Source of the DNA: Nymphaea colorata
Taxonomy: Eukaryota; Streptophyta; Magnoliopsida; Nymphaeales; Nymphaeaceae
Reading direction: 5' to 3'
DNA: 64,000 bases
NCBI RefSeq assembly: GCF_008831285.2
Contig: NC_045146.1
Coordinates: forward strand, 21,839,289-21,903,288
Position 1 is the first letter of the stretch. Each line of letters begins with the position of its first letter. The position numbers were made by a program, and so were the translations under genes. The notes under the pieces are model-generated. The model saw only the letters and a program-made list of their open reading frames with translations. It made no database searches and was not told the DNA's origin. This document shows, piece by piece, positions 253 through 57,964 of the stretch.

Positions 253-1354
253 CCAGTTCCATTTTTTGCTGATGCAAATCTCACTCTGTGTGTGTGTGTG
301 TGTCTGTAAATCCTACATGACTTTTTGAGGGAGGGATTTATCCCGTGAGAATTGCTTCAAAATCAGCGAAAGAGAGAGAGAGAGGGAGAGAGAGCTGTTC
401 TTGCTCCTAAAAGCAGACCAGAATGTTTCGTCAGCTTCTCTTTCTATCGTTTCCTTTTTCTAATTTTTTTCTGTCTTGCCTTCTGTGTATTTTGAGATGA
501 TGTGAAATTAATTAGTCATAAAAAAATTCATGCAGGAAGTCGGAGCTAAGCCCCTGGAGGAGATGGTGTCGCCTTCGTCATGCTCATCAAGATCAATGCC
601 AGAGAGAAAGGCGAAGCCCCAGAGGGAGCAAGCCTTGAACTGCCCAAGGTGCAGCTCCACCAACACCAAATTCTGCTACTACAACAACTACAGCCTCTCC
701 CAGCCCCGCTACTTCTGCAAGACCTGCAGAAGGTACTGGACGGAAGGTGGTTCTCTGCGGAACGTGCCCGTTGGCGGCGGATCCAGAAAGAACAAGAGAT
801 CAATTACCAAGAAGCTCCCCGATATCCATTCACCCATTATTTCCGACCCCTTCTCGCACACCAATGTTGATGACGGCAAGGAGGTCAACTTGGCATTCCC
901 CATTCCACGGGACTGCCACTCTCACCCCACCAAGGCACTGCCTTCTTCTGAACTTCTTGATTATGGAAACCCAGCTTCTTCTTCTTCCTCCTCCTCTGCT
1001 CTCTCAGCTTTGGATTTGATGAAAAGTGAGCTTCCTCCTAGAAGTTTAGGGTCTTTAACGTCAATCCAAGATGCCAACTTCTATGGCCTTCCCGGTTTTG
1101 GCTTGCATGATCTCAGGAGCAGCATGGGTATCGAGGGGTTCAGCGGAAGTGGGAATTTTCAAGATACTCAAGACAACGGAAAGCTGGGCTTCTCTTTTGA
1201 AGATCTGAGGCAACCTTCTCATGTGGAATCAGATCAGAATGCTGCCCAAGCAGTTGGAGGATCTGCATATTGGAATGGGATTTTTGGAGGGGCACCATGG
1301 TCCCAGGTAGCAAATTATGGGCTTTATGAGAGTTCTAGACTGACTCTGCCATGA
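171..1354 (+). CDS. Dof-type zinc-finger transcription factor (Dof4.6/Dof5.6-like), two exons
   Basis: Plant-specific DNA-binding protein expected to bind AAAG core sites in the nucleus. Exon 1 is 171-197 and encodes nine residues ending in VPWPQ; the intron 198-535 has GT..AG borders; exon 2 is 536-1354. The predicted protein is 281 aa. Joining gives the N-terminus [14 protein letters not shown], which resembles the conserved start of Dof4.6-type proteins; this is why I prefer the ATG at 171 to the in-frame ATG at 530, which overlaps the splice acceptor. The Dof finger is CX2CX21CX2C with cysteines at about residues 45, 48, 70 and 73, followed by the family-typical [22 protein letters not shown] stretch. 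A C-terminal YWNGIFGG motif also matches this subgroup. Subgroup members act in vascular or procambial development, but the precise orthologue cannot be set here. A second in-frame ATG lies at 174. Confidence 0.93.
221..303. repeat. (CT)n and (TG)n microsatellites in the Dof intron
   Basis: An uninterrupted CT run occupies 221-247 and a TG run 286-303, both inside the single Dof intron. CT-rich tracts also surround the transcription unit. Confidence 0.9.
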
Positions 1355-27262: not shown

Positions 27263-27692
27263 GTTCTGAGATCTCGAGGGCTTCTTCTCCTCCTTTTTAA
27301 GAATTTCCTCGCCTTTCCTTTCCTCGGGAAGAATTCTTGGGCAGGGAGGCGGGGAAAAGGTACCGGAAGGGAGAAATTCCGTCCATTTTTTTCTGGAAGT
27401 TGTGACGGTGCTCTTCGGGTGGAGTGGTTGGATTATTGAGGGGTTTGGTTTTGAGTGTAAAGACCCAGAGGTCAGAATTTCCCCTTGTTTGAGAAAACAA
27501 GAGGCCTTTCATTTGTGATTCATTCGTTTCGTTCGGTTGGTTTCGGTTCATTGATTTTCCTATGCTTCGTTTGTTCGCCGGAATTGGGCTTTTTCTTGGA
27601 TTTTTTGGGGTTTCTGTGGTTTCCAGGATGTTAGGGTTAGGGTGGGAGTGGAATGGGGGCTATAGGGATTGATTGAAGGAGATGCGGGGGGA

Positions 27693-27709
27693 ATGAAGGA
27701 GGAGGAGGA

Positions 27710-27740
<31 letters not shown>

Positions 27741-30700
27741 AGGTTTTTCGATTCGAGGGAGGAGATAACGGCGACGTCTGACGCGTTGGACTACGGGGAG
27801 GTTTGTGATCTGGGGAAGCCCGACTTGTTTGCAAACCTTGGACGGTCTGGTTTCGAGGTGTGGCTCGGCAGGCCGGAGAGTGTGCGGGAGCGGCGTGAAC
27901 GGTTTCTGCGAAGGATGGGGCTAGATCGGAGCGAAGAGGGGGAGGCGGAATCCGGCTGTGAGGGCTTGGATTTGGTGCGTGTGAAGAGGGTGGAGGATTG
28001 TGAGGTGGTGGAATTTTGGGATTCGGATTCGGGGAGCGAACTCTCGTCCGGACATACCTCGACGTCGAGTAGGTTGGAGAATAGCTCGTGCTCGTCGATG
28101 GATGGAGTGGGGAATGGAATTGAGTATGGTCGTGGTTTGGATTTAATGCTTAGAATTAGGAATCTTGATGATGGCAGTGAGTTCATGGTTGATGAGAATG
28201 ATGAGGGTGGAGATCTAGGAAGGATTAGGGAATTGCGTTCCGATAGATTAGTCTCAATTGATGAATTTCATATGCATCTTGGACTTTCGCCGATTGTTCA
28301 GCGGCTTATGAGGAGAGACGCCGAAGAAGGAGTCAATGTGGGTGGCGATCTAGAGGATATGGTGATCAGGAGAAAAAGGTGGTTAGGAGGTTTGATGGCG
28401 GCCATCGGTAGTAGACAGAGACGGCACAAATCCTTTCCGGATGATCCACCGAGTATTACTCGGGATGCTCACTGTGGGGATATGGAGATTGCAAGTTTTG
28501 AAAAGGTTAAGGTGCATCGTATTAGGAAGAGGGATAAGGAGTTTTCAGCAGTTTATCGAACACAAGAGATACAGGCTCACACCGGGGCGATTCTCACCAT
28601 GAAATTCAGTATAGATGGCGAGTTTCTTGCGACTGCCGGCGAAGATGGCGTAGTGCGTGTTTGGCAGGTGATTGAGTCGGAAAGATCTAACGAACTTGAT
28701 TTACCTGATTCTGACTCTGCTTGCGTGCACTTCACATCCAATAAATCTGCTGAATTGACCCGGACTGCGGTCAGCAAAGATAAAAGAGGAATATACAGTA
28801 AGAAAAAATCAAGCGCTTGCGTGGTTATCCCTCCCAGGGTTTTCCGGCTATCGGAGAAGCCTATTCATGAATTCCATGGACACAGCAGCGATGTACTGGA
28901 TCTCTCATGGTCTCAATCTAAGGTACTTTGTTCTCTTTGTTGGTGCTTATCTGAGTCCAATATTGCATCTCTTTTCTCTTTTCAAATTGCTTATATTAAT
29001 AAGAGACTGCCGATTTCTCAATGCAGTGCCTACTGTCATCATCCATGGATAAGACTGTTAGGTTGTGGCAGCTTGGATCAGACAAGTGCGTTAATGTGTT
29101 TCCTCACAATAACTATGGTATGTCTGATCTCAAGTACTGTCTAGAAATTCATCGACGTTGTAGATTTCAAGTAATTTATGAAGTATTGTCTCTTCAGATA
29201 ATTTGTAGATTGGAATTTATATGTTACAAATCTTCTTTATGCAGTGACTTGTGTCCAGTTCAACCCCATTGAGGAAAATTACTTCATCAGTGGTTCGCTT
29301 GATGGGAAAGTTCGGATTTGGTCCATTCCCAATTGTCAAGTTGTTGATTGGGCAGATATAAGAGATATAGTCACTGCAGTTTCTTACAGTCCAGATGGAC
29401 AGGTTTACATCTCTGCTTGCTTGCTATTGTAATGCTATAAAAGTTGCATACTTATTTAGTCAGATACATCCATAGCAACCAGTCTAACGTTTTCCATGCC
29501 TTTCTTCTCTATAAACAGAGAGCGCTAGTTGGCTCAATGACGGGAAATTGCCGCTTTTATGATGCATCAGGTACTATCTCGCAATCCAGTTTTCTTTCTT
29601 TAACATGTCTGTACATTCTTCCATCTCGTTCCACAGCTCAGTTTTAAAACGCCTTCAATCATATGGACAGGCCTTCTTTTTTCCCCCTTATGGTTACTCT
29701 CTGCAATTATATGCCATCTTGTTAAGTAGGTCTTTTCCCTTTGTTAATCCTTCTCCCTTCTCACTACATGCTTCCAAATATTAAAAAGCAATTACAGTAC
29801 CAAATGAAACTCTCTTCACAAAACTGTATTTTCGCTGCCTCCTGAGGTCGTATCTACCGTCTCTTTGGTATTCTTCCTGATTTTCATTGGTATCTACAAA
29901 ATTCTGTAATAAAGTCAAAGTCCGCTTCTCAGACCAGAGGTCGTCCTTTCTTTTGTTACTACCACCGTCTTGTCTGTTTGTTTGTCTACTGTCCATGTGT
30001 AACTTGTTTTAACATGTAATGCACATAGTCTTCTACCAGTCTTCTGTAATGCACTCGTACGAAAAGGAAAAAAAAAATGTAGTTTTTTTTTTTGAGATTA
30101 AGGACTAACTACAGGTTAATGTTTAATTAGAGTGGTTTCTCTCTCACAAAAGTTTTGCATCCTATAATCCATGGCATATAAAGCTGTTGTCAAAGTTTTG
30201 CCTTCAGAGCATCCTTACGAGAAGGCAAGAAGGGCATTCTTTTCTAAATTAGCTTTGTGTGGTCGATGTAGGTCATTGTCTGCAGTTGGATACGGAGATA
30301 TGCTTCCAGGGGAAGAAGAAATCTCCGGGCAAAAGAATTACTGGATTCCAGGTAATACATTCGTCCGTTATCATATACCATCCTTCCAATTGCTTTTCAT
30401 AGTCATCGCTGGTTTTTATGTTCTATCTTACCCTCTGCCTTTTCCTATGTCCTGACGATGAATTTTTCCTCCATCTCCCGCTCTGCAGTTTCATCCGAAC
30501 AACGCTCAGAGGGTTATGGTAACTTCTGCAGATTGTCGAGTTCGAATAATTGATCAACTCAACATTGTCTCCAAATACAAAGGTAAATAATCTCTTTATT
30601 TGGCAATGCATTTTTCATTGTTTCATGCATTTCATATTTTCATATTTCTTCAAAGTCCTTTGTATTGAACTCTATTGTGTTTTCAGGATTCAGGAATCCG

Positions 30701-31288
30701 GCAAGCCAGATATCAGCATCATTTAATTCGAATGGAAGGCACATTATATCCGCAAGTGAGGATTCTCACGTCTACATGTGGACATACGAGTCATCGGAAT
30801 CCCCTGTCTCCAAGCCAACAAAAAGCGTTCGTTCTTGTGAGCGCTTTTATTCAAGAAATGTCTCTGTTGCAATGCCCTGGTGCAGCCCAAAGACCAAAAT
30901 TCCCGTTTCTATTTCATCTGGTCCTTTCGAGGCTCGGTATAGAAGTTCAAGTGACTCGCTTGACAGCTCAGAAAATGGTTGCCGCAGCTACTGGGATTCT
31001 TGTGACAGCAGTCCGTCGACGACCTCATCATCTCCTAACAGGTTGTCAGTGGCTCATGGATTCTTCAGTGACGGTCTTGTTAAGGGGTCTGTAGCTACAT
31101 GGCCTGAGGAAAAGCTGCTCTCGTCCTCGTTAGGAACAAAATTATGTAGATCTCAGTGCAAGTTCCTCAAGATTGCTTCCGGTGACAATGCTGTGGTGCC
31201 GTATGCGTGGGGTTCGGTTATTGTTTCTGCGAGCTGGGATGGACGTATTAGTTCATTCCAAAACTTTGGTCTACCAACACAGCGCTGA
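27693..31288 (+). CDS. WD40-repeat protein, plant WDR44-like family, seven exons
   Basis: Exons: 27693-28922, 29027-29117, 29245-29402, 29519-29570, 30272-30351, 30489-30582, 30687-31288. All introns are GT..AG and the frame is continuous, giving about 768 aa. The N-terminus has a Glu-rich run (residues about 3-16) followed by RFFDSREE and a conserved [15 protein letters not shown] segment, as in the plant transducin/WD40 family related to animal WDR44. WD repeats start near residue 292 ([18 protein letters not shown]) and include [44 protein letters not shown], a RVRIID repeat and [12 protein letters not shown], followed by a Ser-rich tail. The protein is probably a scaffold; mammalian WDR44 binds Rab11, but the plant role is not established. 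The start is the first ATG in the frame. Intron 4 is the longest (701 bp). Confidence 0.95.
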
Positions 31289-39021: not shown

Positions 39022-40454
39022 ATGGGGAGGAGTCCATGTTGCTCGAAAGTTGGACTTCTCAGAGGGCCATGGTCACCGAGAGAAGACGAACTGCTCATCA
39101 GTTACGTAAACGAACATGGCGAAGGTCAATGGAAGTCTTTACCCAAGAAAGCAGGTTTCAGTTTCACTTCTTTGCTTTTTCGATGCATTATGTTATGTGT
39201 GTTTCTTGTTCTCACGCCTGCAATTGTCACGCTATATTTCTCTCTGTTTTTGGCTGTTATTCTTTCTTTTCACTGAAACATCTTCATGGGTCTTCCGCAT
39301 ATTTTACTCTTCAATTCACTGGAAAAGTAATACTGTGCTGCTCCTGCGGACTATTGTGCTTCTCCTCCTCCTGAAATTCTCTTGGGAACTTAACCTTCTG
39401 CTGTTTCTTTTAATTGAGGAAAAGTTACCATGAATCAGATCCTGTTTTGCTTCGATAAATTTTAAGGGTGACACCTCTCCATTTACGTTTTCTGACCCCC
39501 TCTTTCTCTCCGTTCGACATTCCCACGACTCTCTCTCTCTCTCTCTCTCTCTCTTTTTAACGTTTGATGAATGCCTTGTGCTAATTAATTAATTAATTGA
39601 GCATTCCCATTTTTGTCGGCTTTCTCCCTCAAACTCACTCAGGGCTCCTAAGGTGTGGAAAGAGCTGCAGGCTGAGATGGATGAACTACCTGAGGCCTGG
39701 TATAAAGAGAGGCGGCATAGGCCAAGATGAGGAGGATCTCATCCTCAAGCTGCATGCTCTTCTCGGCAATCGATGGTCTCTCATTGCAGGCAGGCTTCCG
39801 GGTCGCACAGATAACGAGATCAAGAACTACTGGAACACCCATCTCAGCAAAAAGCTCAAGAGGAATGGCATCGACCCCAACACCCACAAACCCATCCTCG
39901 GTTCCTTTTCTCAATACAGCAACGATGGTGTATTTCGTCCCCGAAATCAACAATTCATGCGGAGAAGGTCTGCCCTCAACACCAGAAGCAACAAAGGGAA
40001 GAACGGCAGAAAGGATCACGTTACCGAGGTTACAGGCTCTAGGCTTCATATGCCTAAGGCAACTAGAGTCATACCCAAAGTACCACCGCCATGGATGCGT
40101 CGAGAGACAAAGGTCCTGCCCATTTGCGAGGGTAGGAACCATGGCAGCAAAAATGGTGGCGAGTTCACTGGTGGTGGTGGCTCTGATGATGAGCTCTGTA
40201 GGTCGGGTTCCGCTGTGTCGCTTCTTGATCAGAATGTAGGTTGGAGTGGAAACGGTGAGTTCACACAGGAAGTCCACGGTTATGATCACGGCGAGGGATC
40301 CACGCCTGAGATTTTTCAGCTTTGGCACGATCGCGGTCAGAATATTGTAAGTGATGATCACAGCGTAAAGATGAAGATTCATGAACCGAGTCTCGTCTGC
40401 TTGGAGGATGAGAACATGCTGTTGGATTCCTTCATTCAATCTCTCATGGACTGA
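39022..40454 (+). CDS. R2R3-MYB transcription factor with bHLH-interaction motif, two exons
   Basis: Exon 1 is 39022-39154, exon 2 39643-40454, with a GT..AG intron of 488 bp; the protein is 314 aa. It starts [12 protein letters not shown] and has complete R2 (tryptophans in GPW, GQW, LRW) and R3 (Ile replaces the first Trp, then NRW and YW). R3 has the DLX2KX3LX6LX3R signature at residues 76-95, which binds R/B-type bHLH partners, so it belongs among the flavonoid or epidermal-fate MYBs. A KATRVIPK stretch after R3 faintly recalls the TT2 (subgroup 5) motif, but the subgroup is not settled. Most R2R3 genes have a second intron within R3 (before WSLIAGR); here R3 is uninterrupted. It probably regulates proanthocyanidin or anthocyanin genes; that is inference. 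The 263-codon frame on the opposite strand is a shadow. Confidence 0.94.
39799..39819 (+). promoter_or_regulatory. Candidate miR858-type target site in the MYB R3 exon
   Basis: The 21-nt segment over the codons for PGRTDNEI is complementary to miR858 as I remember it, apart from G:U pairs near miRNA positions 2, 8 and 20 and mismatches near 14 and 21. miR858 targets this conserved part of many R2R3-MYBs. Pairing was counted by hand. Confidence 0.45.
39831..39852 (+). promoter_or_regulatory. Degenerate miR828-type site (WNTHLSK codons) in the MYB
   Basis: These 22 nt encode WNTHLSK from residue 108, the motif also encoded by the miR828 complement. Compared with the window's own miR828 they mismatch at miRNA positions 2, 8, 10, 14 and 17, so efficient cleavage is unlikely. 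Confidence 0.4.
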
Positions 40455-48876: not shown

Positions 48877-49159
48877 CGTGTTTCGAATCAACAGCTTCTC
48901 ACGATGTATGTTTCTTTCCTATGATGCATTGCTTTAAGAAGCTAGGCGTGTTTCGAATCAACTGCTTCTCACGATGTTTCTTTCCTATGATGCATTGCTT
49001 TAAGAAGTAGGCGTGTTTCGAATCAACAGCTTCTCACGATGTATGTTTCTTTCCTATGATGCATTGCTTTAAGAAGCTAGGCTTGTTTCGAATCAACAGC
49101 TTCTCACGATGTATGTTTCTTTCCTATGATGCATTGCTTTAAGAGGCTAGGCGTGTTTC
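48877..49159. repeat. Minisatellite, four copies of a 70-bp unit
   Basis: Units start at 48877, 48947, 49012 and 49082 with cgtgtttcgaatcaacagct (or a one-base variant). Unit lengths are 70, 65, 70 and 70 bp, and a partial fifth copy ends at about 49159. Unit 2 lacks the tatg of the gtatgttt segment and one further base. Identity between units is very high, so the array is recent. Confidence 0.95.
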
Positions 49160-51002
49160 TTCATGTCACGGTCATGGTCGTGAGGCTATATCCTGGTAGT
49201 GGAAAACCAGATTTGTAGCTTCCATGAGCGTGGCCACATTGTTTAAGAGCTTCCAGGCATTGCCCATTAAGTGCTAAGGGAGGCACAGTACAGATGCCCC
49301 AGTAGAGGTGAAAATTTATCAGATTGGTATCTGCTAAACACGTATAAGATCGGATTTGAATCAAATTCCAAATAGCCAAGATTCTCAACATCCTCACTAC
49401 CCCATTTAAAGCCTGATCCGCTGTTTCTTTTTCCTTTTTGTAAAAAAGATCCCAGCTGTGAGCCCAAGAGCTTGAGTTGTGTGCTTTTTGGCTTCACACA
49501 TGGCCATCTGCATTTGGAAATGCTGACGAAATTGAGACATTTGTCTCATTCAACATGGAAAGGAAAATTGATAGGAAACAGAAGGGTAAACAAAGCGGCC
49601 AAACGGTCGAATCTTAATCCTGTCATTCAAACATCTTGCCGTAGAATTGTTACTTTTACGGGGTTCAGTCTAGTCAATATTTACTTGAAGAACAACGAAT
49701 AAAAATCTTCGCGAGCCAATTCTTTCTCATCCGTTTCCTTCACTGTGACTTTATATTACTGCCTACATTTTTTTTTTAACAAAAAGATTGTATGTATTGC
49801 AGCTGGCTTCGACCTCGTACCTCAAGTGACAAACTTTCGTCGCGTTATGACTTCAAGTTTTAATTTATTTATTTAATTTTCCTGGCAGCTGCCATTTTAT
49901 GGCAAAGTTGAGTCCTGCCTCCTCATGCCTTAGCATTTTGAAGCCATCAAAGTTTTAGGAGTTTGAAGCAAACGAACGAAACAGATCAGGAAAGAGGGAG
50001 GTGTTTTCCCCCAAACACATAAAAAAGAGCTCAAAAAGAAAAAGTAATTCACTTTCATGGAGTGCTAATTTTTCACATAAAAAAAACTAAGTAGGGAAGA
50101 GCCATCCCTTTGCCTCAAGGGACATAGCACCTCAAGAGCATAGATGGTTGGTCTAGGTATGAAAAAATAGGTTTTTAGTTTGATTGTTATGGGCGCTGTC
50201 ACTCTGCATCATAAGCAGTGGATTGTGGTATCTAAGTTGAAGAGTGTACTGCCGATGATGCTGATGCCATGCCACCACTTAAGTGTTCAGCCATTAGTTT
50301 TCTCATTTTTCACCTGAAGAAACGTAAGGGCACCGACAGTAGCAGCTATATGATTACACGGAGCAGGAAGAATGATGGTCTCTTTATTTCGTTGATACTG
50401 CCTGGAACAACAATTTACTTGATCCTGAAATATGTACATCAACTTTCACGTGGGGTTGGCCAGGCAACTCCGCTATCCCTATCTTGGTTTGGCTCATATA
50501 CAAGGTAGTTGCCAGTTGAACCTCTGTAGCAGAAACAAGTCATCTCATGAAAGGATCTCCTTTACTTCAAAACAATCTCTCAAAAATGGCGTTGTCTCAG
50601 TGATGACCAACACAATAAACCCCTAAAGACAGACTTTTCGGATTTTCTGTACTGCTGGCTACTGCCATCGTGTGCTTTCACGCTTACAAATCACCATGTA
50701 TATAAGATGTATATATCTTGCATGTTGGTGAAATATCATGAGTTCAGAAGCCGCCATTAAGGCCCTCTGCTGCAAAGTTAAAGTTGACGGTGCAAGGAGT
50801 GGATCAGATCACCCGCTGAGTGTCCTCCTTAATGTGAGACACCATTCAGGAGACGTTTCATTCACGTTAAGGGTGTCAACCAACTGGTCGACCTGATCTA
50901 CTTCCTTGCAGTGCATGACCAGAGTAGAAAACCCACAGAGAGAGAGAGAGAGGACTTACCATGAACACATGCAAGTGCAGGGAGAAGTGGAGTCTGTAGA
51001 GG
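49160..51002. other. Intergenic; nothing recognised
   Basis: Short open frames without known domains; a GA run lies at about 50938-50954, near the distal side of the miRNA hairpin. Confidence 0.5.
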
Positions 51003-51183
51003 CTTACGCCTTCCAAAGGCAGGCATCTAGCTCGGATGAGTATTACACCGCAGGGAAACGCAAGTCGCAGCAGAACAGAGGCATGGTGATGGATGGTTTT
51101 GCCCTCTGAAACGTTGGGCTACGTTTTCCTTCTTCGAGTGGAATACTCATTTGAGCAAGAGGTCTGCCATGGAAGGCCTTACA
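51003..51183 (-). ncRNA. MIR828: MIR828 precursor hairpin
   Basis: The complement of 51139-51160 is a 22-nt sequence that begins UCUUGCUCAAAU and ends GUAUUCCA; as I recall it, this is identical to plant miR828. It lies in the 5' arm of a hairpin read on the minus strand. The opposite arm (complement of about 51026-51047) pairs with it except at four positions (miRNA nucleotides 4, 9, 10 and 20), which predicts a star strand near 51024-51045. The loop is about 91 nt. Pairing continues below the duplex: gccttcca and ggcag on one side (51008-51023) oppose ctgcc and tggaaggc on the other (51164-51178). A 5'-arm 22-nt miRNA that triggers TAS4 siRNAs and cuts MYB transcripts is the known behaviour of miR828. 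Weak short reading frames on both strands here are incidental. Confidence 0.92.
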
Positions 51184-51231
51184 TTCCTGGAACTCTTCAT
51201 TGCCCAGATGAGACCACACGCACCTGGCCCT

Positions 51232-51243
51232 GTATATAAATAC
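51232..51243 (-). promoter_or_regulatory. Possible TATA box for MIR828
   Basis: On the minus strand this reads gtatttatatac, about 50-60 bp before the predicted hairpin base, a suitable distance for a start site in between. The motif is nearly symmetric, so its orientation is not certain. Confidence 0.35.
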
Positions 51244-52692
51244 ATCCATAGAGGATCAAAGTTCTACTTCCTCCCCTTCTGTTACCCCTTCTGCCTGTGA
51301 AACAGTAAAAGTAAAAGCTGGTTCCATCAAAAGTTGAGAATCTGATCCTAACGGCTAGCACTCGCTTTCATAGTTCTTTGCGTCAACCTCTCTCCGCCGT
51401 GCTATCTTTCCAAAAGTGAACAATTTACAGCACCCAACTTCTAGTCTAACAACAGAAACCATATATCCTCTGAAATTTTTTTCATTTTACCGCCAGTTTT
51501 GCTCCAAATATAAAAGATTCAAACACATACATAGAATATTTTATTGCTGAGGAGAATTTCTTCTTTTTGACTTACTTAAATACACCCACCTTCTAGTCAA
51601 GAATGAGGGAAGAATCAGGTTCCCTCGTTGATTTCATCAGATTTTTGGGATGAAGGGCAGAGTGCACGAGTCTCTAGGTAATCTTGGGGCTCTCAATATT
51701 AACAAGTTAAGTGGGAAAAAACACTTAAAAAAGGATCGTTCTGGTTTAGGTAAGCGTGCGCTACATGTAATTGGTTGGTAATCTATAGTCGAAAATTTGT
51801 AATTGGAAACTCAGTCAAACATGGGTGAATTCCATCTTTAACATGTGTACCCTTTCTTCCAAATTCAGCATTAAACGAGGAAAATTTTGCCCCGTTCAAA
51901 TGACAAAACCCCCATCGAGAGATCAACAGCACACCCTTTAAGCCAACCGGTTTCCAGTGATCAGCTTGAATGATGCAAAAAGTAATGGTAGAATTCAAAT
52001 TCATTAACCTTCCAAGAGCTCTTCTTTTGATTTTTAGGTTTCAAGTTGGTTTTATCTTATCTGCAGACGGTCAAATTCGATCAAAAAGCTGAAGACTTGA
52101 TTCTCAATGCTTGCTTTAAAGTACTTAGTACATCAGCATTAATTTCGATCCACAAACTTCAAGAGATCTTAAATAGTGAGCCGATTACCGAGGTGGTTGG
52201 ATGACAACTAAAACCTGGTTTTGTCTCAAAATACTATTTTATTGATGATAACAATAAAATACTATTTTACCGCCACTTCTCCCTCAGTTTTTTCAGCAAA
52301 ACTGATTATATATATATATATATATATATAACTTTTTCATCAGATCAACTCTCTCCCAAACACGGATTCAACCCCAAAATCATGAGATTTTTTTTGAGAG
52401 GGAGGAAGGTGGTGCGAGGCTTGGGCCCTATTACATTTTAACAAAAAAAAAAAAGGGAGCGACTGTTTCCTTTTCAAAATCGTAAAAAAAGAGAGAGACA
52501 GTGTTTAACCTCCTGAAAGTCTTGCATCCACTTGCGCTCTTCTTTATGAACTTTTTGAAGCCTTGTGTCAGTGGATTGTCGAACTGCCGTATCTACATGC
52601 GATCTGCATCTAAAGGAACAACCATTCTTCACTTCACTTCACTTCACTTCATCTCACATGAACATAACCATAACAGAAAGAGAACGAGAGGG
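51244..52692. other. Region between MIR828 and the copia element
   Basis: No gene seen. This is the probable 5' flank of MIR828. It has an AT run at about 52310-52330, and direct cttcactt repeats at 52629-52651. Confidence 0.5.
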
Positions 52693-52697: not shown

Positions 52698-53185
52698 TGA
52701 AACGGATAATCACCAATTGGCAAGAGAAACGGATGAGGATAAACACCAATTGGCAAGATCGCAGATTGCGTCGGTTACAACAAAGGCCAAATCAGTCAGG
52801 CCACAGATTGCATTGGATATTAATGGGATTGCGTTGGATATTAATGCAAGAGATAATAAAGGCAAGATAGCTATGGATATTCATGATGATTTGGGGAAGA
52901 TTCATCCAAGAAAGAGTAAGTCGGTTAAGGAAGATGGCGATCCAGAGATGCAACAGCCCAACAAAGCAAGTCAATCTAAAACCGACAATCATATTAAAGA
53001 TTCTTGTACAGCTCATAAGAGCAATCATGATAAGGATGTAATCTCTCCTAAGATCAAGGAGAAGCCTAACGTGTAAAGCATTATAAATAGTGGAAAGCCT
53101 CTCCACCAAAAAGGGTGGAAGGACCCCTTCTCGTGGACGTAGGTGAATTTACACCGAACCACGTAAAATCTTCTTCTTTCTCACA
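52698..53185 (+). repeat. 5' LTR of the copia element (488 bp)
   Basis: Starts tgaaacggataatcacc, ends ctttctcaca. A TATA box, ttataaatag, is at 53081-53090, so transcription probably starts about 30 bp later. The first 60 bp carry an internal repeat of caccaattggcaaga. The LTR is open in one frame from its start to 53076. Confidence 0.96.
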
Positions 53186-53197
53186 TGGTATCAGAGC
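53186..53197 (+). other. Primer binding site (initiator tRNA-Met)
   Basis: tggtatcagagc directly follows the 5' LTR and is complementary to the 3' end of plant initiator tRNA-Met, the standard primer of plant copia elements. Confidence 0.95.
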
Positions 53198-53245
53198 AAT
53201 AGGGTCTTGGGCCGTGAGTCTCTTCAAGCTTTTTGTATTTTCTCA

Positions 53246-53980
53246 ATGGCTTCTATTGTGACCCCTTCTTACCCATACCCTTACAACTTAAACGTCACAA
53301 ATTTTGTGACCATTAAGTTGAACCAAACCAATTTTTTGATATGGAAAACTCAGCTGCTTGGACTTATTAAAAGCCAAGATATGACTGAGTTTATTGAAGG
53401 AGAGACGGTTGCACCTGAACCCACAATCAAGCATACCAAGGAAGATGGTACGGTGGAGGAACGAGTGAATCCAATCTATCAAGCATGGCGAAAATCAGAT
53501 CGACTATTGCGTGGATGGATCACCGGCACTCTCGCAGAAGAGGTCATGGGCACGATTATTGGCCTTCAGACGTCTAAAGAGGTATGGCACACTCTCATGA
53601 CACATTTCTCTCATAAATGTCAAGAGAGGGAACACTTGCTTATGCAAAAGCTTTAGACTTATAAGAAAAGAAGTTTATCTATTGCTGATTACATCTGTGG
53701 GTTCAAGAAAATTTGTGACGAGCTTGCAGCCATAGGCAAGCCTATAGAGGATCATTCCAAAGTCTTTTGGCTTCTCAGTGGATTGGGACAGGAATACGAG
53801 TCCTTTACCACCACTATGATGAAACCCCCAACGCCATCTTACATGGACGTAGTAGCTTTACTTCAAAGTCATGAAACTATGCGAAGCATGTATCATGAAG
53901 AAACCAGCCAGCAGGTTGCGTTTTACAGCAAAAAGTATTCAAACTCCAAGTTTAGAACAAACAAGAATCAGTTTTTTTAA
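53246..53980 (+). pseudogene. copia gag region, interrupted by an amber stop and a frameshift
   Basis: The structural (capsid-like) protein region begins at the ATG at 53246 (MASIVTPSYP), with the typical copia gag phrase VTIKLNQTNFLIWK and later WHTLMTHFSH. It is broken at 53654-53656 by TAG, where related elements usually have glutamine (a single C-to-T change would explain it). The same frame then continues through SLSIADYI and LSGLGQEYESF to a TAA at 53978-53980. That second stop arises within a run of seven Ts (53972-53978), after which the gag-pol polyprotein continues one base out of phase. Copia elements normally encode one continuous polyprotein, so both are probably disabling. Confidence 0.88.
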
Positions 53981-56900
53981 CTCAAAAGGGCGAGAGTTCA
54001 TACAGGCAGCCCAAGGTGGAGGACAAGCAGTCCAAGGTGGTGGACGGTTTCAGTCAAACCAAAACAGAAATGGAGGGCAAGGAGAGAACCAAAGTAAGGA
54101 CAAAGGTGTTCGTTGCCAAATCTGCCACAAATTGAATCACAATGCTGCGAATTGCTGGCACCGATTCAATCACGCCTTTCAAGCGCAAGAAGTTCAACAC
54201 ACCTTGGCAGCAATGAAGATAGCCGACGGTCAAGATAACACGTGGTTTCCCGATACAGGCGCATCCACACATATAACATCTGATCCAGGTAACCTTACAA
54301 ACTTTACTCAGTATCATGGTAATGATCAAATTATGGTAGGAAATGGTGAAAAGTTGAATGTTACTCATATTGGAAATACTGATATTCAAAATGGGGAAAG
54401 ACGTCTTATTCTCAACAACATGCTAGTTGTGCCTCAAATTAAGAAGAATTTAGTCTCAGTCAGCCAGTTAACATCTGAATATCCATATGTTTTTCAATTC
54501 TCTGCTGATGGGTTTTTTGTTAAGGACAAGAGGAACAACCGACTGATAGCATCGGGCAGTAGAGCTAGAGATCTTTATGCGTTCCAAGAGACACCCAAGG
54601 ATCAACAACATGCAGTTTTCTTTTCCAGTAGATTTCAATCAGCAAATAAAGAGACATGGCATCAACGTTTGGGCCATCCTCATCGTCAGATAGTTGATTT
54701 TCTTGTTAGCAAAAATAACATTGAGGTGAGTGGACCTCAATCAAGAATGGGCATTTGTTCTAGTTGTCAAATCGCCAAGATGTGTCGGTTGCCATTCCTT
54801 CCAGTAGAAGATCATTCTCAAATTTTTCTTGAACGTGTTCATTGTGATTTATGGGGACCAGCCCCTATCATGTCTTCACAAAAATTTCAATTTTATGCTA
54901 TATTTGTTGACGAGGCTACAAGATTTGTCTGGTTATATCCTCTCCGGCACAAATCTGAACTTTGTCAAGTGTTTATGGATTTCCATAAATTAGTTGAACG
55001 ACAATTTGGGACAAAGTTAAAAAATTTTCAGACTGACGAAGGGGGTGAATTTAATAGCCGTATCTTAGCAATTTATTTGCGAAATAATGGCATTCAACAT
55101 ATTAAGTCATGCCCCAAAACGCCACCACAAAATGGGTTGGCTGAACGGCGTCACCGGTCCATCGTTGAATTAGGCCTCACCATGATGTTTCACTCTCACG
55201 TACCCATGAAATATTGGGTCGATGCCTTCCTAACGGCTGCGTGGTTGATCAATCGGCTTCCTACTCCCACCTTGCATATGAAATCACCTTTTGAGTGTGT
55301 GTTTGGGAAGAAACCAGATTATTCTTGTCTTCGTATATTTGGGAGTCGTTGTTTTCCTTACTTGAGAGATTATGCCAAACATAAATTTGAGCCAAGATCA
55401 TTACCATGTGTCTTTTTGGGGTATAGCTCTATTCATAAAGGATATCGATGTTTATATCCTCCTACTGGTCGAGTATATATCTCACGACATGTAGTATTTG
55501 ATGAAGCTTATTTCCCTTATCACAAGCCTGGAATATTATTCTCAAAGGTTGAACAACAGCTACATCCTGCCACCTTCAATGATTGGACAGAGCCTCCTCA
55601 TGATGTTACTAACTTGCCTGGTACGCAACACATTGACTCTTATGATGCTTCTGCTCGTATGCATCATGAAGAGATTCCAACTCAAGAAGCATCAACAACT
55701 AGTTTGGCTATCTCGAACGTTCATGCATCCTCCATGCATCAACCAACTGCAGGAGAATTGACGTCTTCGTGTGATGAGCCCTTACATCAAGACAGTCAAA
55801 TTCTCACACCAACTGAGTTATCTCCAAATGCTGATACAACAAGGGAAGCACATGACGAGTCCATTCATACTTCATCAAATTCTCATGCTATGGTTACTCG
55901 AGCAAAGGCTGGTGTTACCAAGCCCAATCCTCGATATTTTCTCACTGTGAGTATTCCATTAGAACCCAAAACGGTGAAAGATGCCTTAATGCATGATGGT
56001 TGGGTGGCAGCTATGAAAGAAGAACTAAATGCCCTCCACCACTGTAAGACATGGACTCTCGTTCCTCGGCAGCCAAACATGAATGTGGTAAGTACACGCT
56101 GGGTTTTCAAAACAAAATTAAAAAGCAATGGTACTTTGGAACGCTTGAAGGCCAGACTCGTCGCTCGCGGGTTCACTCAAATTCCCGGCATTGATTTTAT
56201 GGAAACATTCTCTCCTGTTATCAAACCGGCTACGATTCGCATTGTCCTCACCATTGCATTAACCAACAATTGGGACATCCGGCAGCTAGACGTCAAAAAT
56301 GCATTCCTCCATGGCAACTTAGATCAAACAGTTTTTATTGAACAGCCTCCAGGGTTCGTTGATACATCCAAACCAATACATGTTTGTCGCCTTCATCGAG
56401 CACTTTATGGACTTCGCCAGGCCCCTCGAGCTTGGTATGATCGCTTTGGTTCATTCTTATTGACAAAAGGGTTTTATACAAGCATCTCCGATTCCTCTCT
56501 CTTCGTCTATCGAGCAGCCCAAGGTACTATATTTCTCCTCCTCTATGTTGATGACATCATATTAACAGGGAGCAACAACATCCTTCTTCAACAGTTTGTC
56601 AATGAGCTTAGTACTGAATTTGCCATGAAAGATCTTGGATACCTTCATCATTTTTTGGGTATAGAAGTTGTTCAAACCCATTCTGGACTCTTCTTAAATC
56701 AAAAGCGATACGCCTTTAGTCTACTTGAACGTGCAAAACTGCTCGGCTGCAAACATGTCATCACTCCTTTGATTCAACACTATCAACCTCCTAGTGATGA
56801 TAAACTCTTTCCGGCTCCAACTTTATTTCGGAGTCTAGTTGGAGGACTACAATACTTGACGTTCACTCGACCTGACATATCGTTCAGTGTTAATTATGTC

Positions 56901-57812
56901 AGCCAGTATATGCAGACACCAAAGAATAGTCATTTCCAACTTGTGAAGCGTATACTTCGCTACATTCATGGCACCATTTCTGATGACTATATTCTTTCCC
57001 CTCAGAAGGATTTTCGGCTTCATGCTTTCTCTGATTCTGACTGGGCAGGATGTCTAGACACTCGACGCTCTACTACTGGTTATTGCACTTTCATCGGAAC
57101 AAATTGCATCTCCTGGACTGCTAAGAAACAGCCTACTGTTGCTCGATCGACGACTGAAGCTGAGTATCGATCTATGGCATCTGCCGCCGCTGAACTTACG
57201 TGGATTACATATATTTTGAAAGATCTTGGAATATACTTGGCCTCTGCACCTACCTTATATTGTGATAATATGTCTGCACTACAGGTTTCTATTAAGCCAG
57301 TTTTTCACTCTCGAATGAAACATGTCGAATTAGATTATCACTTCCTTCGTGAAAAGGTTGCACTTGGTCAGCTTACTACGCATTTTGTGCCTTCCTCCCA
57401 ACAACTTGCTGATATATTTACCAAGGCACTGTCAAGCCATTCTTTCAATACACTTCGCACCAAACTGGGCCTCACTAAAGCCCCGCCCAGTTTGAGGGGG
57501 GATGAAACGGATAATCACCAATTGGCAAGAGAAACGGATGAGGATAAACACCAATTGGCAAGATCGCAGATTGCGTCGGTTACAACAAAGGCCAAATCAG
57601 CCAGGCCACAGATTGCATTGGATATTAATGGGATTGCGTTGGATATTAATGCAAGAGATAATAAAGGCAAGATAGCTATGGATATTCATGATGATTTGGG
57701 GAAGATTCATCCAAGGAAGAGTAAGTCGGTTAAGGAAGATGGCGATCCAGAGATGCAACAGCCCAACAAAGCAAGTCAATCTAAAACCGACAATCATATT
57801 AAAGATTCTTGA
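53979..57812 (+). CDS. copia pol region: zinc knuckle, protease, integrase, RT, RNase H
   Basis: This is one unbroken frame of about 1277 codons. Landmarks by position: CX2CX4HX4C nucleic-acid-binding knuckle from 54114; aspartic protease DTG at 54252; integrase zinc motif around WHQRLGHPH and CSSC (about 54657-54765); integrase catalytic D at 54846, D at 55035 and the QNGLAERRHRS E near 55143; reverse transcriptase with DVKNAFLHG (about 56290) and the YVDD active site at 56544-56555; RNase H with SDSDWAGC (about 57030), TEAEYRSM and LYCDNMSAL. All catalytic motifs look intact, in contrast to gag. The frame does not stop at the polypurine tract but runs about 103 codons into the 3' LTR. An apparent upstream ATG at 53871 lies inside gag in another frame and is not a likely start. 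Confidence 0.93.
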   Translation, partial: NSKGREFIQAAQGGGQAVQGGGRFQSNQNRNGGQGENQSKDKGVRCQICHKLNHNAANCWHRFNHAFQAQEVQHTLAAMKIADGQDNTWFPDTGASTHITSDPGNLTNFTQYHGNDQIMVGNGEKLNVTHIGNTDIQNGERRLILNNMLVVPQIKKNLVSVSQLTSEYPYVFQFSADGFFVKDKRNNRLIASGSRARDLYAFQETPKDQQHAVFFSSRFQSANKETWHQRLGHPHRQIVDFLVSKNNIEVSGPQSRMGICSSCQIAKMCRLPFLPVEDHSQIFLERVHCDLWGPAPIMSSQKFQFYAIFVDEATRFVWLYPLRHKSELCQVFMDFHKLVERQFGTKLKNFQTDEGGEFNSRILAIYLRNNGIQHIKSCPKTPPQNGLAERRHRSIVELGLTMMFHSHVPMKYWVDAFLTAAWLINRLPTPTLHMKSPFECVFGKKPDYSCLRIFGSRCFPYLRDYAKHKFEPRSLPCVFLGYSSIHKGYRCLYPPTGRVYISRHVVFDEAYFPYHKPGILFSKVEQQLHPATFNDWTEPPHDVTNLPGTQHIDSYDASARMHHEEIPTQEASTTSLAISNVHASSMHQPTAGELTSSCDEPLHQDSQILTPTELSPNADTTREAHDESIHTSSNSHAMVTRAKAGVTKPNPRYFLTVSIPLEPKTVKDALMHDGWVAAMKEELNALHHCKTWTLVPRQPNMNVVSTRWVFKTKLKSNGTLERLKARLVARGFTQIPGIDFMETFSPVIKPATIRIVLTIALTNNWDIRQLDVKNAFLHGNLDQTVFIEQPPGFVDTSKPIHVCRLHRALYGLRQAPRAWYDRFGSFLLTKGFYTSISDSSLFVYRAAQGTIFLLLYVDDIILTGSNNILLQQFVNELSTEFAMKDLGYLHHFLGIEVVQTHSGLFLNQKRYAFSLLERAKLLGCKHVITPLIQHYQPPSDDKLFPAPTLFRSLVGGLQYLTFTRPDISFSVNYVSQYMQTPKNSHFQLVKRILRYIHGTISDDYILSPQKDFRLHAFSDSDWAGCLDTRRSTTGYCTFIGTNCISWTAKKQPTVARSTTEAEYRSMASAAAELTWITYILKDLGIYLASAPTLYCDNMSALQVSIKPVFHSRMKHVELDYHFLREKVALGQLTTHFVPSSQQLADIFTKALSSHSFNTLRTKLGLTKAPPSLRGDETDNHQLARETDEDKHQLARSQIASVTTKAKSARPQIALDINGIALDINARDNKGKIAMDIHDDLGKIHPRKSKSVKEDGDPEMQQPNKASQSKTDNHIKDS
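57489..57502 (+). other. Polypurine tract of the copia element
   Basis: agtttgagggggga lies immediately before the 3' LTR and would prime plus-strand DNA synthesis. It is part of the coding frame (SLRG). Confidence 0.9.
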
Positions 57813-57964
57813 GGATGTAATCTCTCCTAAGATCAAGGAGAAGCCTAACGTGTAAAGCATTATAAATAGTGGAAAGCCTCTCCACCAAAAAGGGTGGAAG
57901 GACCCCCTCTCGTGGACGTAGGTGAATTTACACCGAACCACGTAAAATCTTCTTCTTTCTCACA
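57503..57964 (+). repeat. 3' LTR of the copia element (462 bp)
   Basis: Same sequence as the 5' LTR except for three transitions (in the ccaaatcag-caggcc, ccaag-aagag and gacccc-tctcg segments) and a net 26-bp deletion after aaagattcttg. The right target duplication agaac follows at 57965-57969. Confidence 0.96.

Follow-up and report, generated by a model that had tools for sequence, protein, structure and literature searches.

A probable MIR828 gene of the water lily Nymphaea colorata and its partner in a duplicated segment

The DNA considered here, a window of 64,000 nucleotides from C9 of the water lily Nymphaea colorata, very probably carries a MIR828 gene on its minus strand, one of two that arose by a segmental duplication; its partner lies on C2. 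By analogy with the rest of its family, the miR828 encoded here should act to silence genes of the MYB family, some of which control flower pigment. Sequence, fold, a second copy, collinearity and target sites are the observations on which we build. A preliminary description had proposed a MIR828 gene on this strand, and the sequence, the opposite arm, the geometry of the duplex and the second locus all fit that proposal. So do a mature sequence that is unchanged alongside a diverged star, lower stem and loop, and good MYB sites elsewhere in the genome. The features of the locus and its neighbors are collected in Table 1.

Table 1. Features of the MIR828 locus and its neighbors, in positions of the window
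Feature	Position	Strand	Remarks
Dof zinc-finger gene, anchor of the block	530..1354	+	Pfam Dof; 100% full-length to N. colorata protein
R2R3-MYB gene, two exons	39022..40454	+	Pfam Myb; own splice sites, 39022-39154 and 39643-40454
MIR828 hairpin (precursor)	51003..51183	-	181 nt; fold against shuffles, MFEI 0.75, Rfam RF01026 match
Lower stem, 3' side	51008..51023	-	From the fold
Predicted miR828 star, UAAUACUCAUCCGAGCUAGAUG	51024..51045	-	From the fold; 2-nt 3' overhangs
Terminal loop	51048..51138	-	91 nt, partly self-paired; poor alignment to C2 loop
Mature miR828	51139..51160	-	22 nt, 5' U, 5' arm; exact match
Lower stem, 5' side	51161..51177	-	About 17 nt, internal mismatches
TATA-like box, TATATA	51233..51238	-	Sole TATA[AT] within 300 nt upstream of the mature sequence
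Upstream block in common with C2	51348..51392	-	35/45 identical

The identity of the small RNA is the simplest part of the argument. Read on the minus strand from 51160 to 51139, the DNA spells TCTTGCTCAAATGAGTATTCCA, which agrees with canonical miR828 at 22 of 22 letters, as had been claimed. The same 22 letters are given for grapevine MIR828A in the available text of PMC2831844, and that of PMC8438446 has them for miR828a of apple and grape, so the preliminary description had the miR828 sequence right. With up to three mismatches allowed, TCTTGCTCAAATGAGTATTCCA matches once in the 64-kb window and never in 100 shuffles. Prokaryote and viral sequence collections gave no match to the exact 22-mer.

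The arm opposite also behaves as had been described, pairing with the mature sequence at 18 of 22 positions (51047-51026) and leaving no bulge. The distance of 113 nt given for it proved to be the offset from the start of one arm to the start of the other; between the arms lie 91 nt (51048-51138). Mismatches fall at mature positions 4, 9, 10 and 20. Plant miRNA duplexes have up to five mismatches and few bulges, and the C9 duplex, with four and none, is of this kind; mature and predicted star fold together at -18.5 kcal/mol. Pairing does continue below the duplex, the stem running to about 51177/51008, and there are further pairs inside the loop. A lower stem of about 17 nt suits dicing from base to loop.

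As in MIR828 genes, the hairpin is stable and has the mature sequence on its 5' arm. On the minus strand 51003-51183 folds at -69.0 kcal/mol against a shuffled mean of -45.4 (sd 3.9; z -6.0), and none of 200 shuffles is as stable. The wider stretch that had been suggested for folding, 50980-51200, bears this out at -74.7 kcal/mol (z -4.3, again 0 of 200). Among 1420 sampled 181-nt folds from both strands of the window, one was as stable per base as the hairpin. The locus had been called hidden under unrelated reading frames, a fair account: five frames of 49-86 aa overlap it (counted stop to stop from 45 aa upward), none with a Pfam match. They show no sign of being genes, and the hairpin looks intergenic.

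The 407.8-Mb N. colorata assembly holds two perfect copies of the 22-mer, the one in the window and one at C2:30493010-30493031, both on the minus strand; the reversed 22-mer, run as a control over the whole assembly, had no match. The C2 stretch folds on its minus strand at -63.2 kcal/mol (z -5.0, 0 of 200 shuffles as stable), and its duplex at -20.3 kcal/mol compared with -18.5 on C9. The two loci share the mature sequence, related lower stems and star arms, an upstream block, and Dof and MYB neighbors. They differ in that C2 has a shorter loop, which aligns poorly and with long gaps to that of C9, a higher Rfam score, and the minus strand as its better-folding one. What has changed between them, and what has not, is telling. 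The mature sequence differs at none of 22 positions, the arm opposite it at 4 of 22, and the lower stem at 5 of 20 on the 5' side and 6 of 20 on the 3' side, making 15 of 62 for the stem outside the mature sequence. At that rate, and with sites assumed independent, the chance of 22 unchanged positions is about 0.002. One stem pair has altered on both sides and still pairs. Another 11 pairs form in one copy alone, seven in C2 and four in C9, which makes C9 the less regular of the two.

Profile scores have to be read with some care. Rfam's MIR828 model, RF01026, matches 51018-51168 at 37.6 bits and the opposite strand at 32.6, where its cut-off is 69; the C2 copy, at 58.7 bits, falls short as well. 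A search of the window at Rfam gathering scores returned nothing. At E up to 1 it gave 50 rows, most of them AT-repeat stretches assigned to other miRNA families, with MIR828 ranked 23 by bits. Genome-wide, at E up to 0.001, the search returned the C2 copy only (56 of 56112 candidates scored). We read the low scores as reflecting a model whose loop is short, and do not use the cut-off as a biological criterion.

Upstream, the TATA-like box lies on the expected minus strand in both the C9 and the C2 copies. As evidence it weighs little, because TATATA is frequent: counted on both strands, the window has 612 of them, mainly within AT repeats. Our guess for the start site is the CA at 51210-51209, 29 nt past the box. 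The block in common with C2 precedes the mature sequence by 188-232 nt on C9 and by 210-254 nt on C2. On the minus strand, 51348-51392 contains TTGACGCA and CCGTTAG, which we take to resemble W-box and MYB-binding cores; given that likeness, feedback by MYB proteins is conceivable. A scan for bacterial-type promoters and terminators, a method not apt for plant DNA, found none.

The company the gene keeps is what ties the two copies together. On C9 the order is Dof (+) at 21.840 Mb, MYB (+) at 21.878 Mb and MIR828 (-) at 21.890 Mb, and C2 repeats it in the same orientation at 30.351, 30.473 and 30.493 Mb. The Dof paralogue at C2:30350649-30351443, second-best of 29 genome matches listed, shares 59% identity across residues 4-265 of the 274-residue query. 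In a tblastx comparison of the window with the C2 segment (80 of 86 matches listed), the MYB gene and the hairpin are collinear; the other listed matches are mostly short or fall between Copia-type stretches. For the window MYB, 10.7 kb from the hairpin, the best relative listed is a protein of Nymphaea thermarum, with 94% identity. No close N. colorata protein is among the 120 matches listed for it, so this gene may be absent from public annotation or modeled differently there. C2 has two further MYB-type sites, at 30.420 and 30.426 Mb. Victoria cruziana has its best relatives of the window Dof and MYB genes both on contigs of 226342348 bases, and several paralogues of the two on contigs of 220669513 bases. 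From the C9/C2 collinearity and this arrangement in Victoria cruziana we read a segmental duplication, probably one of the whole genome. MIR828 would then have lain near this MYB before the segments were duplicated.

Three other elements share the neighborhood. A Copia-type LTR retrotransposon lies at 52698-57964 (+), about 1.5 kb from the hairpin; its end repeats are 99% alike, so its insertion was probably recent. A tandem array (70-bp unit, 4.1 copies, 93% matches) occupies 48877-49159, 1.8 kb from the hairpin, and pieces of a WD40-repeat protein gene lie at 27669-31288 (+).

It is tempting to go further and see in the linkage a relic of the birth of MIR828 beside, and from, the MYB family it now silences, predating the C9/C2 duplication and kept near the base of the flowering plants. 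We think this rather unlikely. In 28 comparisons of the hairpin flanks with seven MYB genes there was no convincing similarity that would speak for a MYB origin. Six comparisons passed z 2.5 (60 shuffles each): three come down to pyrimidine-rich repeats, another to a match of 16 bases, and a sixth, C9 against C12, stands at z 2.5 itself. The remaining one, a 38-column gapped match of the C9 lower stem to the C3 MYB at z 4.6, we take as chance, or as beyond judging.

Could the C9 hairpin be something other than a working MIR828 gene? One might suppose that it does descend from such a gene and is now a fading duplicate, poorly processed or silent, with C2 doing the work. Its lower Rfam score (37.6 vs 58.7 bits), longer loop and weaker duplex (-18.5 vs -20.3 kcal/mol) lean that way, as does the count of seven pairs peculiar to C2 and four to C9. 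Yet a mature sequence that is intact while 15 of 62 other stem positions differ tells against decay, and the hairpin has kept a TATA box and a fold far more stable than its shuffles, so that we find fading improbable. That the hairpin is instead a scrap of a MYB gene in reverse, carrying the target codons, or simply a chance fold, seems to us scarcely credible. One frame of the plus strand of the mature sequence does encode WNTHLSK, like MYB genes, but the window MYB agrees with the 22-mer in no more than 17 bases, the flanks have no convincing likeness to the seven MYB genes, and a second hairpin with the same 22-mer stands on C2.

The strand calls for more discussion. If the hairpin were transcribed from the plus strand, its conserved arm would be the complement of miR828 and it would be no source of the small RNA; and across 51003-51183 the plus strand does fold better, at -86.0 kcal/mol (z -8.1) compared with -69.0 (z -6.0) for the minus. 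On C2, however, the order is reversed (minus -63.2, plus -54.4), and the minus strand is better in four other cuts too. Of 1064 windows, 69 have strands that differ by at least 17 kcal/mol, and for strongly folding windows the count is 23 of 83; the wobble skew is not significant in any of four alignments (5:8, 3:7, 1:7 and 6:7; p 0.58, 0.34, 0.07 and 1.0). It is also the minus strand that matches a known miRNA exactly and that has the nearest TATA box. Transcription from the plus strand as the explanation of this locus is therefore very unlikely, and we keep to a minus-strand MIR828 gene, most probably in working order. As a separate matter, the better plus-strand fold of 51003-51183 makes an antisense transcript possible.

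A MIR828 gene also needs something to act upon, and matching sites are present in the genome. The miR828 complement with up to three mismatches occurs in at least 17 places, the reversed pattern in 1 (counts from the genome pattern search are lower bounds); with both MIR828 loci and the star arm of C2 set aside, 14 remain. Five R2R3-MYB exons carry predicted sites, on C4, C12, C10 (two) and C3, with penalties of 2, 2, 2, 2 and 4, and in each the site falls at WNTHLSK-type codons after KNY or KNH. These MYB sites are the kind of match, in MYB mRNAs or TAS4, that is expected alongside a MIR828 gene. The C3 MYB has an NDVKN signature, presumably like that of the subgroup-6 anthocyanin MYBs. Another two of the 14 places are MYB-like and score 5; one contains stops. 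The other seven are not MYB-coding at the site and score 2, 2.5, 3.5, 3.5, 4, 4 and 5, which means that a low penalty is not in itself proof; six of them, at 2.5-5, are not near a known MYB exon. Starting instead from a degenerate pattern for the codons, we found at least 18 places, two of which are the MIR828 loci. The other 16 divide into four at penalty 2-4 and 12 at 6-14, which suggests that more than the protein motif lies behind close matching to miR828. The C3 gene is missing from this list because it reads WNTRLSK.

Neither of the MYB genes beside the hairpins is a good candidate. We rejected the window MYB as a target (site 39831-39852, penalty 8, 17 bases matching the 22-mer), and its companion on C2, at penalty 6, is not a good one. 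A curiosity on C8 deserves a mention. A penalty-2 miR828 site at C8:20199134-20199155 (-) lies in non-coding sequence, and about 360 nt downstream, in the same direction, is a MYB R3 exon reading TANDVKNYWNSHL, which we take to be a signature as in anthocyanin MYBs. Is this locus TAS4-like, or a broken MYB gene? When 14 phases on both strands were compared with nine MYB stretches, nothing matched except the C8 locus itself, twice, which lends the TAS4 reading no support, and the genome search established no TAS4 in N. colorata.

For transcription, processing, slicing, siRNAs and any effect on color, the miR828 family is our guide. With the TATA box at 51238-51233, RNA polymerase II would begin transcription near 51209. 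The primary transcript would fold, and DICER-LIKE1 would cut from the base of the lower stem, itself about 17 nt long, to free the 22-nt miR828/star duplex. ARGONAUTE1 loaded with miR828 would slice MYB mRNAs where the R3 repeat encodes WNTHLSK; being 22 nt long, the guide would also trigger 21-nt phased siRNAs. MYB output, such as pigment control, would be lowered as a result.

That a member of the Nymphaeales should have MIR828 is expected, since the gene has been reported from gymnosperms and Amborella, along with several early monocot orders (PMC7194464). Less expected is that in both duplicated segments it is linked to a MYB gene. For N. colorata, a survey published in 2024 (PMC11548254) listed 92 miRNAs, 72 of them in 22 conserved families; the available main text, as distinct from the family table in its supplement, does not mention miR828. 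The miR828-related passages at hand in PMC3445533 concern Liriodendron. The titles and abstract openings that we found, as distinct from the miRNA databases, contain no report of a Nymphaea miR828. Two MIR828 genes and their candidate MYB targets can now be placed in a water lily that is cultivated for blue petals (PMC7015852), from a lineage near the base of the flowering plants. The predicted stars of C9 and C2 differ, so existing small-RNA libraries, such as those named in PMC11548254, can tell which copy works where. And the Dof-MYB-MIR828 block offers a marker for asking if MIR828 adjoins MYB genes in other plants.

How does this gene compare with systems already known? miR858 and miR159 also target R2R3-MYB mRNAs, at other positions in the MYB genes (PMC3446319), and are set apart here by description only; in apple, the accessible part of the same paper places miR828 sites in the third exon of R2R3-MYB genes and has TAS4 cut too. 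Set beside Rfam RF01026 and grapevine MIR828A (PMC2831844, in the text available), the C9 gene has the same mature sequence, on the same 5' arm and of the same 22-nt length, and it shares with the Rfam consensus structure the mismatch at mature position 20. It departs from them in a loop some 36 nt beyond the Rfam model without insertions, in a diverged star arm and in a score under the cut-off. The closest parallel in function is lily, where, according to the excerpted text of PMC7661471, miR828 cuts MYB12 mRNA, triggers secondary siRNAs and keeps MYB12 suppressed where the tepal is white. The working we propose for Nymphaea is the same, drawn there from experiment and here from family resemblance.
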